Shown: positions 8,803-38,584 of the stretch, one piece after another | Position numbering within the stretch: the first letter of the stretch is position 1 | Layout of the letters: every line of letters begins with the position of its first letter | Origin: Candidatus Nomurabacteria bacterium | Lineage (GTDB): Bacteria > Patescibacteriota > Saccharimonadia > Saccharimonadales > Saccharimonadaceae | DNA length: 44,859 nt | Assembly: GCA_031255735.1 (NCBI GenBank) | Contig: JAIRRY010000021.1 | Location: forward strand, 1-44,859 | Direction: 5' to 3' | Notes under the pieces: model-generated | The model's database searches: none | What the model saw: the letters and a program-made list of their open reading frames with translations, nothing else | What the model was told of the DNA's origin: nothing | Program-made: the position numbers and the translations under genes

Positions 8803-8876
8803 AGGGGCGTAGTTAAACGGTATAACGGCGGTCTCCAAAACCGCTATTCATGGTTCGATTCCGTGCGCCCCTGCCA
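8803..8876 (+). tRNA. trnW: tRNA-Trp (CCA), 3' CCA encoded
   Basis: Acceptor AGGGGCG/CGCCCCT, anticodon loop CTCCAAA, T-loop GGTTCGATTCC. Confidence 0.93.
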
Positions 8877-8880
8877 AGAT

Positions 8881-10842
8881 ATGGATTTTAAACTTGTTAG
8901 TAAGTACCAACCCACAGGGGACCAGCCCGAAGCAATTCGGTTGCTTAGCGAAGGCTTAAAACAGGGCAGGCGCGAACAGGTGCTAAAAGGCGTAACGGGC
9001 AGCGGTAAAACTTTCACTATGGCTAATATCATCGCTGCTAAAGGTGCGCCCACGTTGGTGCTAGCGCATAATAAAACCTTAGCCGCGCAGCTGTTCAGCG
9101 AATTTAAAGAGTTCTTCCCAGAAAACGAAGTACATTATTTCGTGAGCTATTTCGATTACTACCAACCCGAAGCGTATATCGCGAGCAGCGATACCTACAT
9201 CGAAAAAGACAGCAAAATTAACGACGAGATTGACCGTTTGCGTCACGCGGCCACCGATGCGCTACTAAGCCGCCGCGACGTGATTGTGGTGGCTAGCGTT
9301 TCGTGCATCTACGGTATCGGCAGCCCCGAAAGCTACGACCACATGTCGATTAGGCTGAAAAAAGGCGAGCAACGCAAACGTGATAAGTTTCTGCGGCATT
9401 TAGCCGATATTCAGTATCACCGTAACGACGTAGATTTCGCGCGCGGCACTTTTCGCGTGCGTGGTGATACGGTAGATGTCATCCCAGCTAGCGGCGACAT
9501 GGCTTATCGGGTTGAGTTTAACTTTGATACGGTGGAGCAGCTGACGGTAGTTGATAGTTTAACGGGTGAAATACTAGAGCGGCCAGAAACGCTCACCATT
9601 TTCCCTGGCAGTCACTTCGTTACGCCTAAAGAAAAACTAGATGCGGCGCTGATTGATATTAAAAAAGAGTACGAAGATCGCCTGCGCTACTTTGAGAAGA
9701 ACGGTAAATTACTTGAGGCTCAGCGCTTAGCTCAGCGCACCAAGTACGATATTGAGATGTTGGAGGAAACTGGTTTCGTAAAGGGCATCGAAAACTACAG
9801 CCGCTACCTAACAAACCGCGCGGCTGGCGAACAACCAGCTACCCTGCTTGATTTCTTCCCTGATGATTTTTTGCTACTAGTTGACGAATCACATATGAGT
9901 TTGCCCCAAGTGCGCGGCATGTACAACGGCGATCGTGCACGTAAAGAGGTGTTGGTGGAATACGGGTTTCGTCTGCCAAGCGCCCTAGATAATCGCCCGC
10001 TCACCTTCGATGAGTTTAACAGCCACATCAATCAAGTAGTTTACGTTTCGGCTACGCCAGGTGATTACGAATTAGCTCGCAGCGGTGCGCCCATAGAGCA
10101 AGTAATCCGCCCCACTGGGCTATTAGACCCTGAAGTGGAAGTGCGCCCAACCGAGCACCAGGTAGATGATCTGGTGAATGAAGTGCAAGAACGGGTTGCG
10201 AAGCACCAGCGCGTGCTAGTTACCACTTTAACTAAGCGTATGGCGGAAGATCTTACGGAATATCTGAAAGATCTAGGCATTAAAACGGCTTATGTGCATA
10301 GCGATATTGATACGTTGGAGCGTTCGGATATTTTGCGCGATCTGCGTGAGGGCGTTTACGACGTGCTGGTGGGTATCAATCTGCTCCGTGAAGGGCTAGA
10401 CTTGCCTGAAGTTTCGCTTGTTGCCATTCTTGACGCCGACAAAGAGGGTTTCCTGCGTAGTGAAAGTGCGCTTATCCAAACTATCGGCCGCGCTGCTCGC
10501 CACGTGGAAGGCAAGGTGATAATGTATGGTGACGTCGTGACGGGCTCGATGCGGGTGGCCATCGACGAAACTAACCGTCGCCGTGCAATCCAAGAGAGCT
10601 ATAACCAAGCACACGGCATTAAGCCGCGCAGCATCAAAACAGAGGTGAAACAGGGGCTGCGTGCCATAATTCCGCAAAAAGACTCGAAGTCGCGGTTGAA
10701 CTTGAAGAAGATCCCGAAGGAGGAATACCCAGGGCTAATTAGCGAGCTCACTAACCAGATGGAGCTGGCAGCTGCTAACTTAGAATTCGAAAAGGCCGCC
10801 GAGCTGCGCGACGTTATAGGCGAAATTAAAGAAAAGTTGTGA
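8881..10842 (+). CDS. uvrB: Excinuclease ABC subunit B
   Basis: [12 protein letters not shown] Walker [24 protein letters not shown]-terminal UVR motif; start at ATG 8881, downstream of tRNA-Trp. Confidence 0.96.
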
Positions 10843-10864
10843 ATCTTATAGGTTATAACAACAG

Positions 10865-10892
10865 AAAGAGCCCCACGAGTGGGGCTCTTTTC
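10865..10892. terminator. Bidirectional intrinsic terminator (uvrB on +, ncRNA on -)
   Basis: AAAGAGCCCCA-CGAG-TGGGGCTCTTT with flanking T tract. Confidence 0.88.
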
Positions 10893-11431
10893 AAGCTTGA
10901 GTACTGAGTCAGGATGGCGCCGCTCTACGCGGCCGTGTTTACCCGTATCTTTAATACGGGTTCCTGCCGAGAGAGTACTACGCTCTCGGATTGCCCCCTG
11001 CTCAGGGGCCTTGGTATTCTGGCGCCGCTGCCGCGGCTTCCCTGTAGACCACCAGTCATGGACTGGCTAAAGACGATCTCGTACGGCTTTGAGCCGCAAA
11101 CTCGAAAACGCCTGTGCCACAGGTTATTAGATACTCACCCAGCCATCGCTTACTCTTCCCCGTGCGCCGCGATGGATTCACGCACGGGTTTAATCCTTAG
11201 GTTTGACAGGTCGACGTCACCGTCGTTGCCTGTCCAGGAGGATGCCCGCGTGTATCGACTTACACCTCTGATAAATACTGTAGGTGTAAGCTCGATGCGG
11301 GCTGGCTGGGCACAATAAAACATGCCCCATCAGCCCACATCGACTGTGGAATATCTAAACTAATTAACCTTCATTCAAGCTTATTAATGTACTGGCAATT
11401 AATGCCTCTGTAACCTCTTTTCAAGGCTACG
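10865..11431 (-). ncRNA. Candidate ~570-nt structured ncRNA of unassigned family
   Basis: Minus-strand promoter TTGACA (11466-11461), 17-nt spacer, TATAAT (11443-11438); about 12 hairpins; long-range pairing of 10893-10900 with 11375-11382; terminator at 10865-10890; no credible CDS. Confidence 0.72.
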
Positions 11432-11437
11432 TTAACC

Positions 11438-11466
11438 ATTATAGCACACATACCATATAATGTCAA
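11438..11466 (-). promoter_or_regulatory. Consensus promoter TTGACA-N17-TATAAT for the ncRNA
   Basis: Reverse complement TTGACATTATATGGTATGTGTGCTATAAT. Confidence 0.88.
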
Positions 11467-11664
11467 TACTATTTATGCAAAAAGTTAAAAATATGGTAAA
11501 ATAAAAGTAACTAACAGAGAGGATAGTATGAGTAAAGATTATACGCTGATTCAAGCGATTGCCAATAATAACCAAGATGCGAGCGGCATTTAGGTTATTT
11601 CTATGTATTCAAAAACTGCCGAACATGCTAACATGGCAATATAGTAATTTCTTGGAGGGAGAAA

Positions 11665-12345
11665 ATGGGACAAACTCAACAACGGCCCGTGGTGGCGCCT
11701 GTTAAAATAAATGCGCCGCAGGCATCGCAAGGTTTAATAACAACGCTTAATGGTGTGTCTTTGGCGTTTGCAGCGCTATTTTCGGTGGTCAGTGTTTTCG
11801 CGGCAATTGCTACTTTCACAGATGGAGAATGGTCATTTGACATTCCGATTATCAGCTCGTTTAATATTTCTGGAGCGTCAACATTGTTTGTGACTGCGTT
11901 GGCGTCGTTGGTGTTCGCATTAGTTTCGTTTTTTACAGTTCGTAAAATCACCGATGCTGAAAAATTGAAGAGCGTTTATGCCACCTGGTCGGTAGTTTAC
12001 GCGATTATATCAGTTATATTCGTATCGGCGGTTGTGGCCACCGTCTTTTATGCGCTGTTCGTAGTTGGCGATAAGAGCGTGTCACAAAAGGGTCTGTGGC
12101 TAAGCGGCTTCTTGCCAAGCTTGATTGTGGCAGCTACTAGTGTGGCTATTACTTTACTTTACAAAGCAGTGGCTGGCGGTAAGTTAGCGATTCTGAGCAT
12201 TATTAACCTGGTGGTTATGTGTGTGGCGGTGCTTGGCCTACTACTTACAATTATCTCTATCTTTGTGCAGTACTACGGCGACAAAAAGAGTAACAACAGT
12301 TACAGCGACTACAGTAGGGTCTTGGAAGATTATTACGACCTATAG
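11665..12345 (+). CDS. Hypothetical multi-pass membrane protein
   Basis: SD-like GGAGGGAG before ATG; several hydrophobic helices. Confidence 0.72.
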   Translation: MGQTQQRPVVAPVKINAPQASQGLITTLNGVSLAFAALFSVVSVFAAIATFTDGEWSFDIPIISSFNISGASTLFVTALASLVFALVSFFTVRKITDAEKLKSVYATWSVVYAIISVIFVSAVVATVFYALFVVGDKSVSQKGLWLSGFLPSLIVAATSVAITLLYKAVAGGKLAILSIINLVVMCVAVLGLLLTIISIFVQYYGDKKSNNSYSDYSRVLEDYYDL

Positions 12346-16534: not shown

Positions 16535-17416
16535 ATGAGTTACGAAACGCCAACCAAGGCGGTGATCACTGATGCGGGCTTTGCGAGCCGCTTTTTGCCG
16601 CTCACTAAAACTATCCCCAAAGCTATGATACCGATTGGTGCTAAGCCTGCCATGCAGCTGTGCGTTGAAGAGTGCGCTGAAGCTGGCATCAAAGAGATTA
16701 TCATTGTGGCTACCCCTGGCACTATGGGTAAAGCTATCTACGACGATTATTTCTTAAATCGTGCCGAACACGTTAAGGCACTGCTTGAAAAACAAGGTAA
16801 GGCAGATCGCTTTAAGCCCGTCGAAGACATTTTAAGCCTGCCGAAAATTACCGTGATCGAACAAGACCCTAGCCTGCCATACGGTAATGGCTCACCGATT
16901 GCTAGCGCGCGCCAGTTTGTTGACGGCGAAGCTTTCGTTGCCTTGTATAGCGACGATCTGATTATCGGCGAAGGCGACGTTAAGACCTTAATCGACACTT
17001 ATGCGAAGTACCCAGACGCCAAAGCGGTGATTACCGCGCAAAATATGCCGCGAGAGGTGTGGCATAAGTACGGTATGATCGCCCTAAAAGACGAAACCAA
17101 GCACACCTTGAGCCATATCGTTGAAAAGCCTAAAATAGAAGACTCGCCGTCGAGCTTAACATCGTACGGCAGGTATCTGCTCACACCTGAGGTGTTTGAC
17201 TATCTTGTGCCAAGTAACACAGGGCTAGACGACGAGCTCTGGACGGTAGATGCAATTACTAAGCTTGCTGAAACGGGCGACGTGTATGTAGTGCCGAGCC
17301 GTGGCACGTGGTTGACCACTGGCGACCCCAAGAATTACTTCTTAGCGCACCTAGAATATACTTTGAAAAACGAAGATTACAAGAGTGAAATTAATGATAT
17401 TTTAGCTAGATATTGA
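16535..17416 (+). CDS. galU: UTP-glucose-1-phosphate uridylyltransferase
   Basis: AGFASRFLPLTKTIPKAMIPIGAKPAMQL and VEKP motif. Confidence 0.9.
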   Translation: MSYETPTKAVITDAGFASRFLPLTKTIPKAMIPIGAKPAMQLCVEECAEAGIKEIIIVATPGTMGKAIYDDYFLNRAEHVKALLEKQGKADRFKPVEDILSLPKITVIEQDPSLPYGNGSPIASARQFVDGEAFVALYSDDLIIGEGDVKTLIDTYAKYPDAKAVITAQNMPREVWHKYGMIALKDETKHTLSHIVEKPKIEDSPSSLTSYGRYLLTPEVFDYLVPSNTGLDDELWTVDAITKLAETGDVYVVPSRGTWLTTGDPKNYFLAHLEYTLKNEDYKSEINDILARY

Positions 17417-17441
17417 CCTTTTATTATATTTATTCTATAAT
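17413..17441 (+). promoter_or_regulatory. Promoter TTGACC-N17-TATAAT overlapping galU stop codon
   Basis: Read directly. Confidence 0.75.
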
Positions 17442-17513
17442 ACACTTGATAGCAACTTTTAACTTACTATCACGTACATCAGGTAACTAATTTAAGATTG
17501 CACGCTTTAATTT

Positions 17514-17561
17514 TATGCGTGTATACACGCATATTTTTGTTGTTTTAGAACAAAAATATGC
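17514..17561 (+). promoter_or_regulatory. Overlapping inverted repeats in a ~280-nt 5' leader
   Basis: Perfect 20-nt palindrome TATGCGTGTATACACGCATA (17514-17533) sharing GCATA with the 13-bp stem GCATATTTTTGTT/AACAAAAATATGC (17529-17561). Confidence 0.6.
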
Positions 17562-17729
17562 CAGCGTCTTTAGTTATATCTATATGGTGAGCACTTTAAA
17601 ATCTCCCTGATGATCAAGGGCGGCGTCTTGGGCTTTAAGCTAAAACCCAGCACACCGTTCTTGATGAAAGTTGACGATGCTGATACACAGGGTATTAGCG
17701 CAACTTTTGTGGTAGAAAAGAGGTTTATC

Positions 17730-18473
17730 ATGGATACTAACCCGATTGTGAGGTACGTGATCCAGCGAAAAGAGCTGGATATCGCCATTTTAAGCGGCAA
17801 ACGCGACCCGGAGGTGATTTGCCCGCATCTGCAGGCAATCATTGATGGGTCGGCGCTCAAGCAGAGCGCCATTCCGTGGAGCCCAGTCTGCACCTACGTG
17901 CAGAAGCTCAAGGCTCGTAGCGACTTGCGCGGATGGGGGCTGACAGACGAGCGATTGCTCAACCTGGCGCTCACTCTGCAAGATCACGCCGGCCCACTCC
18001 AGCCTGAAGGCATCAGCTTGACGCTGGGCAAAGGGCTGAAGTACGACCTGGCCGAGGCGGAAGCTTGGGCGAAGGACAACTTCGCCGAGCTTGGCGTAAG
18101 CTTCACCGTCCGCAAGAGCAGATACTCGATGAAGCTGTACGGCGGCGCAGAGCTGCCGACGGCGCCAACCGTAGCCCCTGCTCATCTTGACCTAGAGAAG
18201 TTCTGGGACAAGAAGGACGGCATTTCGGTCGATTGGGTCCGCGAACAAGACGCCGACCTGCCGACGACCGAGCCGTATTGGCTGCTGTGCCTCAACCCTG
18301 AGGCGTGGCTGGCCATCGACGGCAAAACCATGCCAGTGCTGAGAAGCCCTGGCGTGATGGTTGGCGATGACTACGTGCTGAGCTTCATCCGCGATGGCGG
18401 CGAGGCGTGCGTGAACTACAACTGGTCGGACTACCAGTGGGCGAACGCCGCGATTGCGGCTTTCAGGGGGTAA
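17730..18473 (+). CDS. Hypothetical protein, GC-rich compared with neighbours
   Basis: SD AGAGG before ATG 17730; no recognised domain. Confidence 0.7.
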   Translation: MDTNPIVRYVIQRKELDIAILSGKRDPEVICPHLQAIIDGSALKQSAIPWSPVCTYVQKLKARSDLRGWGLTDERLLNLALTLQDHAGPLQPEGISLTLGKGLKYDLAEAEAWAKDNFAELGVSFTVRKSRYSMKLYGGAELPTAPTVAPAHLDLEKFWDKKDGISVDWVREQDADLPTTEPYWLLCLNPEAWLAIDGKTMPVLRSPGVMVGDDYVLSFIRDGGEACVNYNWSDYQWANAAIAAFRG

Positions 18474-18539
18474 AAGAGAACTCGGATCTTGGATCCTTGT
18501 TCCTTGAAAGGCCGGATTTATATCCGGCCCGCTCTCTTT
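18473..18539 (+). terminator. Three-helix 3' element/terminator after the 17730 gene
   Basis: AAAGAGA/TCTCTTT enclosing GGATC-ttg-GATCC and GGCCGGAT-TTAT-ATCCGGCC. Confidence 0.55.
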
Positions 18540-18568
18540 CTGATAAAATTATATTGAGCCATTAGCCC

Positions 18569-32409: not shown

Positions 32410-32438
32410 TTGACACGGCATTTTGGTTCGTGTATATT
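32410..32438 (+). promoter_or_regulatory. Consensus promoter TTGACA-N17-TATATT
   Basis: Read directly. Confidence 0.85.
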
Positions 32439-32444
32439 AGATTT

Positions 32445-32642
32445 TACCGGCCAATGCTGGCCTGCACCTTAATGTTTTATATATACGCTGTCGGTGATAG
32501 ATTATGTCTTCACGGACAGAGTGCTGGCTGCTTATACGGCTTCGGTTGTATTTGTTGTCAGCACCCTGTTCGGGAAGTTGCTTGCTTGCAAGTTATCTTC
32601 CTGGCAGGAATGAAAAGTGCGCCTTCGGGCGTTCTTTTCATT
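32445..32642 (+). ncRNA. ssrS: Candidate 6S-like RNA (long irregular hairpin with central bubble)
   Basis: Apical helix 32508-32526/32559-32577, asymmetric bubble with CTTG-CTTG-CAAG hairpin on the 3' strand, lower helix 32488-32499/32594-32607, terminator 32609-32642. Confidence 0.5.
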
Positions 32643-33330
32643 TTGTGATGACCTCCTGCTTTGGGCATTTGCTTAGCACGTTTTTCAAAGCATCGTGTTC
32701 AGCTTGAGTTACCCATAAGGAGTATTTTTGTTTCACAGTAATTTGGCGCGCAGCGTATTCACAGCGAAAGGCTTTATTACTAGGTAGCCAAGCAGCAGCA
32801 TCGCCGTCGCCTTTTTGTTGATTAGCCCTACCTTCAACTGCTAGTAGCTCAAGTGGGTCGTTGGCTAAGGCTTTGCGTGTGACGGTATCTAGTAGCTGTG
32901 CGCCTTTTTGCCAAGCGTCGCTTAGAGCTACGACATGATCAATCTGCACCGATGAGCTAGTGCCCGCACCACGTTTAAAACTAATGGTTCCACCTGTGTA
33001 AGGGTCGTTTAGAGTTCCTGCTATAACCAGGCAGCCATCTAGTTTCGTTTCTACTAGATCGCGCTGCAAAATCACATTGCGAGTGTCACAGCCGTCAATT
33101 TCACCCCAGCCGTTGCCAAACTCATTGCGGCTGTAGCCAGTTTTGGGAGCGCGGTCTTTAACGGGCAGCTTTTTCAATGCATTTATAGCTAGGCTTACAT
33201 TATTATTGCTGTACGGTACACTTTCAGTTGGTTTAGACTCGTAATTAGATGGGTTAAATATAGTAATCGCACCAATGCCAACTAACATCAAGCTAAACGT
33301 TATTATTCGCCTAAACCTCAACTTGTTCAT
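32638..33330 (-). CDS. Secreted HNH/DUF1524-type nuclease
   Basis: N-terminal signal/TM; GEIDGCDTRNVILQRDL, VQIDHVVALSDAWQKGA, CEYAARQITVKQKYSLWVTQAE. Confidence 0.82.
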   Translation of the reverse strand: MNKLRFRRIITFSLMLVGIGAITIFNPSNYESKPTESVPYSNNNVSLAINALKKLPVKDRAPKTGYSRNEFGNGWGEIDGCDTRNVILQRDLVETKLDGCLVIAGTLNDPYTGGTISFKRGAGTSSSVQIDHVVALSDAWQKGAQLLDTVTRKALANDPLELLAVEGRANQQKGDGDAAAWLPSNKAFRCEYAARQITVKQKYSLWVTQAEHDALKNVLSKCPKQEVITK

Positions 33331-37934: not shown

Positions 37935-38049
37935 TTTTACTCCGTGTAATCATACAAAAAACAGTATTTTTAGTTAAGTTTTTGTACAAGTAGTATTATT
38001 TAGTACCCCTAGTGTAGCAAAGTGGATATGCATTGTCAAGGGCATAGTA

Positions 38050-38078
38050 TTGACAATTTAGCAAAAGTTTGCTATAAT
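38050..38078 (+). promoter_or_regulatory. Consensus promoter TTGACA-N17-TATAAT
   Basis: Read directly. Confidence 0.88.
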
Positions 38079-38086
38079 GAAGAAAT

Positions 38087-38175
38087 AGACACCTCAAATA
38101 GGACGAGGAGTCTAATTTTGAGTGCCCGCGTTGCGGGCTCGATTCAGAAAGGAGGTGAGCTGTATGATTCAGCTC
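38087..38175 (+). promoter_or_regulatory. Riboswitch-like leader with competing anti-SD pairings and start codon in a hairpin loop
   Basis: CACCTC (38090-38095) can pair with GAGGTG (38152-38157, SD) or sit in hairpin AGAC-A-CCTC/GAGG-A-GTCT (38087-38113); ATG in loop of GAGCTG/CAGCTC. Confidence 0.5.
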
Positions 38176-38421
38176 GCTATCTGTAGTTTCTTGCTCGCAA
38201 CTTTTGGCGCACTTTGTGTGCTAGCGGGTAAGAGGTGGCTCAGGGCGGTTTCCGTCGCCGGGATCGTGATTGACGTGTTTATCGCGTCGCCGATCCTAGT
38301 GGCGGATGTCAGCTTGGCACCGATCCTTATCGTGATCGGTTTTGCTATGGCTGGCGGCTTCGCAGTCGCCTTGGCGACAGTCATTGGGAGAGCCCGCAAC
38401 ATCAGCCATCAGGCCGAATAG
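38164..38421 (+). CDS. Small (85-aa) multi-TM membrane protein
   Basis: Strong SD AAGGAGG before ATG 38164; mostly hydrophobic. Confidence 0.72.
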   Translation: MIQLAICSFLLATFGALCVLAGKRWLRAVSVAGIVIDVFIASPILVADVSLAPILIVIGFAMAGGFAVALATVIGRARNISHQAE

Positions 38422-38460
38422 GCCTACCGGGGCGGCCAAAAGCCCGCCCCAACTCCATGT

Positions 38461-38489
38461 TTGACAAAGTTTTAGCGGTTTGCTAACAT
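38461..38489 (+). promoter_or_regulatory. Promoter TTGACA-N17-TAACAT for nusA
   Basis: Read directly. Confidence 0.75.
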
Positions 38490-38584
38490 TAAAGTATTGT
38501 ACATTACCGGCCGACAGGTCGGTTGTTTTAATATCAATTAACAATTTGACTGTACGTTTTTCGGGTCCTGCCACTCGGTCCGCC

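Follow-up and report, generated by a model that had tools for sequence, protein, structure and literature searches.

Genomic setting

The window, by which we mean the whole 44,859-nt stretch of DNA analysed here, is contig C9 of a Candidatus Nomurabacteria bacterium genome (Saccharimonadaceae) of 652 kb in 29 contigs; at 86.6% completeness and 0.15% contamination the assembly is incomplete. The best relatives of its uvrB gene are found in Candidatus Saccharibacteria MAGs (76% identity) and in a genome of the same genus, G040 (87%). On the plus strand uvrB (8863-10842) is followed at 11665-12345 by an ORF for a 226-aa membrane-like product, for which no Pfam family was found, and beyond this by gatC, gatA and gatB. 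Between uvrB and the 226-aa ORF, and thus within the uvrB-gatC interval, the minus strand specifies a predicted noncoding transcript of approximately 570 nt (11432 to 10862, its start being placed from the -10 box). It is convergent with uvrB, stops before this gene, and has nothing downstream of it on its own strand.

In G040, a few tens of bases separate uvrB from a 72-aa ORF (MSKSNYPIAISIAANAQDENEAIEG...), which is followed by gatC. The RNA is missing from this syntenic site, which means that it was either gained in the lineage of the window or lost from that place in G040. Next to the RNA, though not part of it, lies a plus-strand ORF of 21 codons (MSKDYTLIQAIANNNQDASGI*; 11528-11593), which looks like what truncation has left of the 72-aa ORF found whole behind uvrB in G040. 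Synteny comparison with other Saccharibacteria revealed gatC or other genes behind uvrB, never this RNA, and genes seem to come and go in the uvrB-gatC interval.

Promoter, terminator and coding potential

The transcript is preceded by a sigma-70-type promoter (TTGACA-N17-TATAAT; 11466-11438, minus strand), one of only two exact copies of this sequence in the 44.9 kb. All 12 of the 12 consensus bases are present, together with a TG extending the -10 box, and the perfect promoter reported in a preliminary description of this locus, made from the sequence, is therefore confirmed. A second promoter-like site (TTGGCA-N16-TATAAT; 11565-11538, minus strand; 11/12) is found about 100 nt further upstream and could be the source of a longer 5′ form of the RNA. 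At the other end lies an intrinsic terminator (10865-10890, minus strand). This had been called strong; the 11-bp stem is present, but the T tract (CTGTTGTTAT) is only modest.

Inside the RNA the minus strand contains no ORF of at least 60 aa, the longest having 57 aa and lacking a convincing ribosome site, and on this strand the earlier view that the gap between uvrB and 11528 holds no credible CDS is upheld. On the plus strand, a 134-aa ORF (10914-11318) specifies a Cys/Arg/Pro-rich sequence with no Pfam match and was taken as spurious.

Comparison with known RNA families

All models of Rfam 15 were compared using cmscan with the whole window at gathering thresholds, and with positions 10800-11560 permissively at E ≤ 5. 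At gathering thresholds the window yielded tRNA-Trp alone, this being its sole tRNA (8803-8876), and the RNA locus gave no match. The permissive search of 10800-11560 produced chance-level matches only, of a terminator-like or hairpin-like kind. RNase P, tmRNA, SRP, and group I and II introns went unmatched even at E ≤ 5, and the models for the large RNAs OLE (RF01071), ROOL (RF03087) and GOLLD (RF02032) matched at neither setting. The preliminary description had excluded RNase P, tmRNA and SRP by eye and had called for a scan that would also cover OLE, ROOL and GOLLD; the outcome is congruent with that exclusion, and the genes for RNase P RNA (RF00010; G000:C27:13742-14079, G000 being the genome of the window) and tmRNA (RF00023; G000:C27:10609-10992) are both located on contig C27.

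A match to STnc320 (29 bits, against a gathering threshold of 50) is merely the antisense of the terminator. LOOT RNA (RF03000) has no match in the window and was not found in G000. It is present in G040 (C1:58699-58813, minus strand; L116 18699-18813) with 83 bits, immediately ahead of an ORF for a lipoprotein- or membrane-like product.

Predicted secondary structure

The transcript from 11432 to 10862 has a minimum free energy (MFE) of -257.0 kcal/mol and a z-score of -10.8 against 100 shuffles (-10.2 and -11.1 in repeats). At about -11 this is far beyond shuffled sequence, as expected from the earlier claim of a highly structured RNA of about 570 nt. The opposite (plus) strand reaches -228.2 kcal/mol and a z-score of -7.6, so that the minus strand folds better. 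By the same method (20 shuffles), the RNase P RNA and tmRNA of the same genome have z-scores of -2.2 and -2.3. In a GC-adjusted scan of 500-nt windows the RNA is among the most folded stretches; 38001-38500 (plus strand) is equally extreme, and the folding of the RNA is thus not unique in the window.

The predicted fold begins with two small 5′ hairpins at 11394-11430 (11430-11423/11417-11410 and 11406-11403/11397-11394; pair probability 0.99). These are followed by the 5′ arm TAAGCTTGA (11375-11383) of a closing helix, the 3′ arm of which, TCAAGCTTG (10892-10900), lies at the far end of the RNA; the predicted pairing 11383-11375/10900-10892 has a probability of 0.84, in agreement with the proposal that the ends can be closed by a helix. 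A large branched domain is predicted for 11127-11358. At 11292-11343 is a promoter-proximal 5′ hairpin (GUGNGNUG ... CAGCCANCNCNC), whose stem 11343-11331/11304-11292 is the most stable of the entire RNA and had been missed in the preliminary description. A 10-bp hairpin, GCTTACACCT/AGGTGTAAGT (11258-11291; 0.98), comes next, and then an internal domain (11143-11250; pair probabilities 0.73-1.0) in which the hairpin 11234-11205 carries the GNRA loop GUGA. The following domain (11041-11123) is closed by CCTGTGG/CTACAGG and contains two hairpins, its main helices having probabilities of 0.92-0.98. The 3′ domain (10904-11037) consists of the hairpin 11037-11024, the helix 11021-11023/11008-11010, and a multibranch helix (11005-10993/10918-10904) with three hairpins.

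Nearly all of the stems listed earlier occur in the MFE fold, with pair probabilities of about 0.7-1.0. The exception is CCCGTGCG/CGCACGGG (11188-11181/11166-11159), which is present as sequence but is rivalled in the fold by 11250-11245/11188-11183 and 11175-11169/11149-11143. The internal domain (11250-11143) has two competing predicted foldings around 11188-11159, which could represent a switch or merely uncertainty. Since no full-length homolog was found, the helices outside the 5′ hairpin are predictions from energy alone.

Search for relatives

By blastn, 295 genomes of the family contained no relative of the RNA apart from its terminator, and 393 genomes of the class gave only short chance matches; the two samples overlap, and the number of distinct genomes is smaller than their sum. 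A match in G040 to query positions 479-501 is short and lies inside coding sequence, and was attributed to chance. Neither the 50,697 phage records nor the 72,556 plasmid records searched with blastn yielded a relative, and pattern searches of viral contigs gave nothing that was confirmed by nhmmer or by the hairpin model R3 described below. A single-sequence model of the 3′ domain (R1; 10900-11042), used with strict filters, found no relative in 394 family genomes. The RNA is single-copy in its own genome. As far as sequence comparison can tell, it is an orphan with a body that is so far unique in the sampled genomes. It had been suggested that homologs be gathered near uvrB and examined for covariation; full-length homologs were not found, and the 5′ hairpin alone could be compared.

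A shared 5′ hairpin

R2, a single-sequence covariance model of 11346-11255, matched G534:C20:65653-65702 (31.9 bits) and G040:C1:43322-43399 (28 bits), the next-best score in G040 outside the latter locus being 14.2. The resulting three-sequence alignment is almost gapless and GUGNGNUG...CAGCCANCNCNC is kept. In it 96.6% of the pair cells are kept and seven of 20 pairs have changed on both sides, figures which lean toward structure because the rows were chosen by a pairing model, which inflates covariation. The model derived from this alignment, R3, matched further loci in G186 (66 bits), G521 (47), contig C23 of the window's own genome (33.2), G076 (27.6), G027 (26.4) and G485 (24.3). With the window hairpin as a founding row there are eight further loci in the family; those in G534, G186 and G521 are orthologous leaders and do not count as three independent events.

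In all nine loci a sigma-70-like promoter with 0-3 mismatches of 12 is located 37-140 nt upstream on the same strand. Such promoters are found at 0.1, 0.8, 3.3 and 20% of random points for 0, ≤1, ≤2 and ≤3 mismatches, respectively. As the model knows nothing of promoters, their presence is support that is independent of it. The weakest R3 matches, in G023 and G506, had no promoter and were dropped. When 40 genomes of genus g2 were searched with looser filters G485 alone matched, indicating that the element is sporadic.

The window hairpin (11343-11292), of which the RNA contains a single copy, sits approximately 90 nt from the -10 box, and so falls within the 35-140 nt behind a sigma-70-like promoter that define the promoter-proximal CAGCCA element. 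The comparison shows it to be part of a 5′ element that other strongly promoted transcripts of the family also carry close to their start, some of these being mRNAs and some apparently noncoding.

Transcripts headed by the hairpin

In G534, G186, G521 and G000:C23 the hairpin lies in the leader of a gene for a 111-aa protein with the motif NLTPH. This protein matches the PDB chains Crn4b, Crn4a and Crn4 (E = 4e-9, 4e-5 and 5e-4) and also the PADLOC model Unk_01, "sometimes fused to CARF". Crn4 is a CRISPR-associated ring nuclease (PMC12830947). The Crn4-like gene of the window's own genome (G000:C23 around 35034; L358 7563-8060, plus strand) lies behind a near-consensus promoter and an extended leader that is folded, an arrangement repeated in three genus g2 genomes. 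In one of these, G534 (L208 1636-1968), the gene is beside a phage-type integrase and has a Csx3-AAA gene downstream. We know of no published RNA family for the leader of the Crn4 gene of Saccharibacteria.

Elsewhere the hairpin precedes a 265-aa protein, matching no known family (G040), and a 144-aa ORF (G027). In G076 (L230) and G485 (L231), where z-scores range from -3 to -6, only tiny ORFs are found directly behind it, and these two loci therefore look like stand-alone RNAs. The Crn4 leaders share with the window RNA a consensus promoter and a hairpin 73-88 nt after the -10 box, but they continue into the 111-aa coding sequence, whereas the window RNA has no ORF and a long folded body.

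Stem-loops at the 5′ end stabilise bacterial mRNAs, for instance that of ompA. As in that case, the window RNA, which is probably strongly transcribed, carries an extended stem-loop close to its 5′ end; unlike the ompA type, which is found on mRNAs, the CAGCCA hairpin also occurs on a noncoding RNA, where a stabilising role is putative.

Folding behind strong promoters

In the GC-adjusted scan the most folded stretches of the window lie behind near-consensus promoters, at 11466 (minus strand) and at 17413, 32410 and 38050 (plus strand), with z-scores over the first 300 nt of -8.6, -7.7, -7.9 and -7.7, respectively. Two of the seven window promoters (4042 and 30911) lead into ordinary sequence. 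In G040, 70 near-consensus promoters had a median z-score of -1.36, compared with -0.38 at random sites (p = 4e-5), an excess to which tRNAs and terminators close to promoters may contribute. A z-score of -11.75 was obtained for the Crn4 transcript of the window's own genome. Strong folding is thus common to several strongly promoted transcripts here, some of which are coding, and because the coding transcripts are equally folded, folding alone is no proof of RNA function. Among the clearly noncoding cases observed the window RNA is the largest, and 32439-32645 looks like a smaller one.

Interpretation

The sequence feature is real and very probably an RNA gene, and the evidence supports a free-standing structured RNA gene that has its own promoter and terminator and belongs to no known family. 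To our knowledge, little has been described of noncoding RNA in Patescibacteria, including Saccharibacteria, beyond the housekeeping families. An RNA this large and folded is costly in a genome of some 0.65-0.75 Mb, which suggests that it has a real job.

We lean, with some reserve, toward a stand-alone, probably strongly expressed and stable, trans-acting structural RNA that carries the 5′ hairpin module of some strong transcripts of the lineage. Transcription of the minus strand from about 11432 to about 10862 would yield the RNA of some 570 nt. Its ends would be shielded from nucleases by the closing helix (11383-11375/10900-10892) together with the 5′ hairpin. Thus protected, the RNA would accumulate and serve as a scaffold, structural or binding, that acts in trans and is not the leader of a downstream gene. 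We judge this the most likely reading because the RNA has its own promoter and terminator, nothing lies downstream on the same strand, and both ends are in helices. The 5′ hairpin would probably be a stabilising or binding module, and the multi-helix body may be lineage-specific, either acquired or heavily remodelled after the sister species diverged. A bolder version, which we offer only tentatively, is that this is the first recognised of a set of lineage-specific large structural RNAs that combine a shared 5′ module (consensus promoter and CAGCCA hairpin) with a fast-evolving body and serve as an RNA-only or RNA-protein scaffold.

The RNA might instead descend from a folded mRNA or leader whose coding sequence was lost, leaving a by-product of a strong promoter. 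The same promoter-hairpin module heads mRNAs elsewhere, strong promoters here often lead into folded mRNAs, and the apparent truncation of the neighbouring 72-aa ORF suggests a site in flux. Against such decay, no frame is still open, and helices that drift would have eroded are near-perfect over the full length, on the transcribed strand in particular; we regard this origin as unlikely.

We are equally doubtful, if not more so, that the RNA is a decoy or sponge, the hairpin titrating a protein or nuclease that acts on the Crn4 and other mRNAs and thereby tuning them in trans. The hairpin is indeed common to the Crn4 leader of the same genome (G000:C23, 33.2 bits) and to others, and the RNA has a strong promoter of its own. 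Known sponge RNAs, however, carry many copies of their target site and this RNA has one; the Crn4 hairpin of its own genome is quite diverged, and 500 nt of further structure would be left unexplained.

The preliminary description likened the RNA to OLE, ROOL and GOLLD, and an oligomer-forming ornate RNA of this type would act as an RNA-only cage or scaffold. Like these, the window RNA stands alone, is several hundred nucleotides long, has many helices, paired ends and its own terminator, and is strongly promoted; by size and closed multi-domain architecture they are its nearest kind. Membership is not supported. Besides the absence of an Rfam match, conservation was seen for one hairpin only, and no homologs were found in which conserved kissing loops could be compared. 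The comparative evidence is confined to the 5′ hairpin, which occurs on mRNAs too, and the argument from size and architecture is weakened by the other highly folded transcripts of this genome, coding ones among them, that start from near-consensus promoters. ROOL and GOLLD are RNAs of phages and prophages, often near tRNA islands (PMC12286853), whereas the window RNA lies neither in a phage nor beside a tRNA island, its flanks being uvrB and gatC-gatA-gatB. Its placement with these RNAs is hence unsupported, and we consider an oligomer of this type improbable.

A DNA-level or mobile element, that is, a hairpin-rich insertion whose transcript has no role, would fit a single inserted block that relatives lack and that is missing at the corresponding site of G040, but is very improbable given one copy in the genome, no visible ends, target duplication or transposase, and an oriented promoter and terminator with strand-asymmetric folding.

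The RNA is less surprising than it first appeared, because folded transcripts are common in the lineage and conservation of the body is not demonstrable. In one respect it is more interesting, as the 5′ module links it with a larger group of transcripts that is open to testing. The shared hairpin, found also on Crn4 ring-nuclease-like genes, provides a concrete handle for asking what binds or protects it, and raises the question of why many of the lineage's strong transcripts fold so extensively.

Other folded transcripts in the window and in G040

Three further strongly promoted transcripts of the window, all on the plus strand, deserve mention. At 32410-32645 a TTGACA-N17-TATATT promoter is followed by approximately 200 nt that are folded and end in a terminator-like stem, GCGCCTTCGGGCG, the only ORFs being short and unassigned; this is a candidate for a second noncoding RNA. 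At 17413-18540 a GC-rich ORF that matches no Pfam family lies behind a near-consensus promoter and a long leader, in which CATATTTTTGTT...AACAAAAATATG and ATCAAGGGCGGCGTC...CTTGAT are predicted to fold; leader elements much like this one occur at least twice in G040 (C1:196152 and C4:72331). At 38050-38560 the second exact TTGACA-N17-TATAAT promoter of the window is followed by a transcript with strong predicted folding, within which a small membrane-like ORF starts at about 38164.

In G040, whose non-ORF stretches were scanned for folding, a promoter at C3:111383 is followed by some 300 nt that are rich in GC, strongly folded and free of ORFs, and by a stem resembling a terminator (G040:C3:110968-111383, minus strand; L138 10968-11383). 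This is possibly a stand-alone RNA of the sister genome, unlike the window RNA in sequence.
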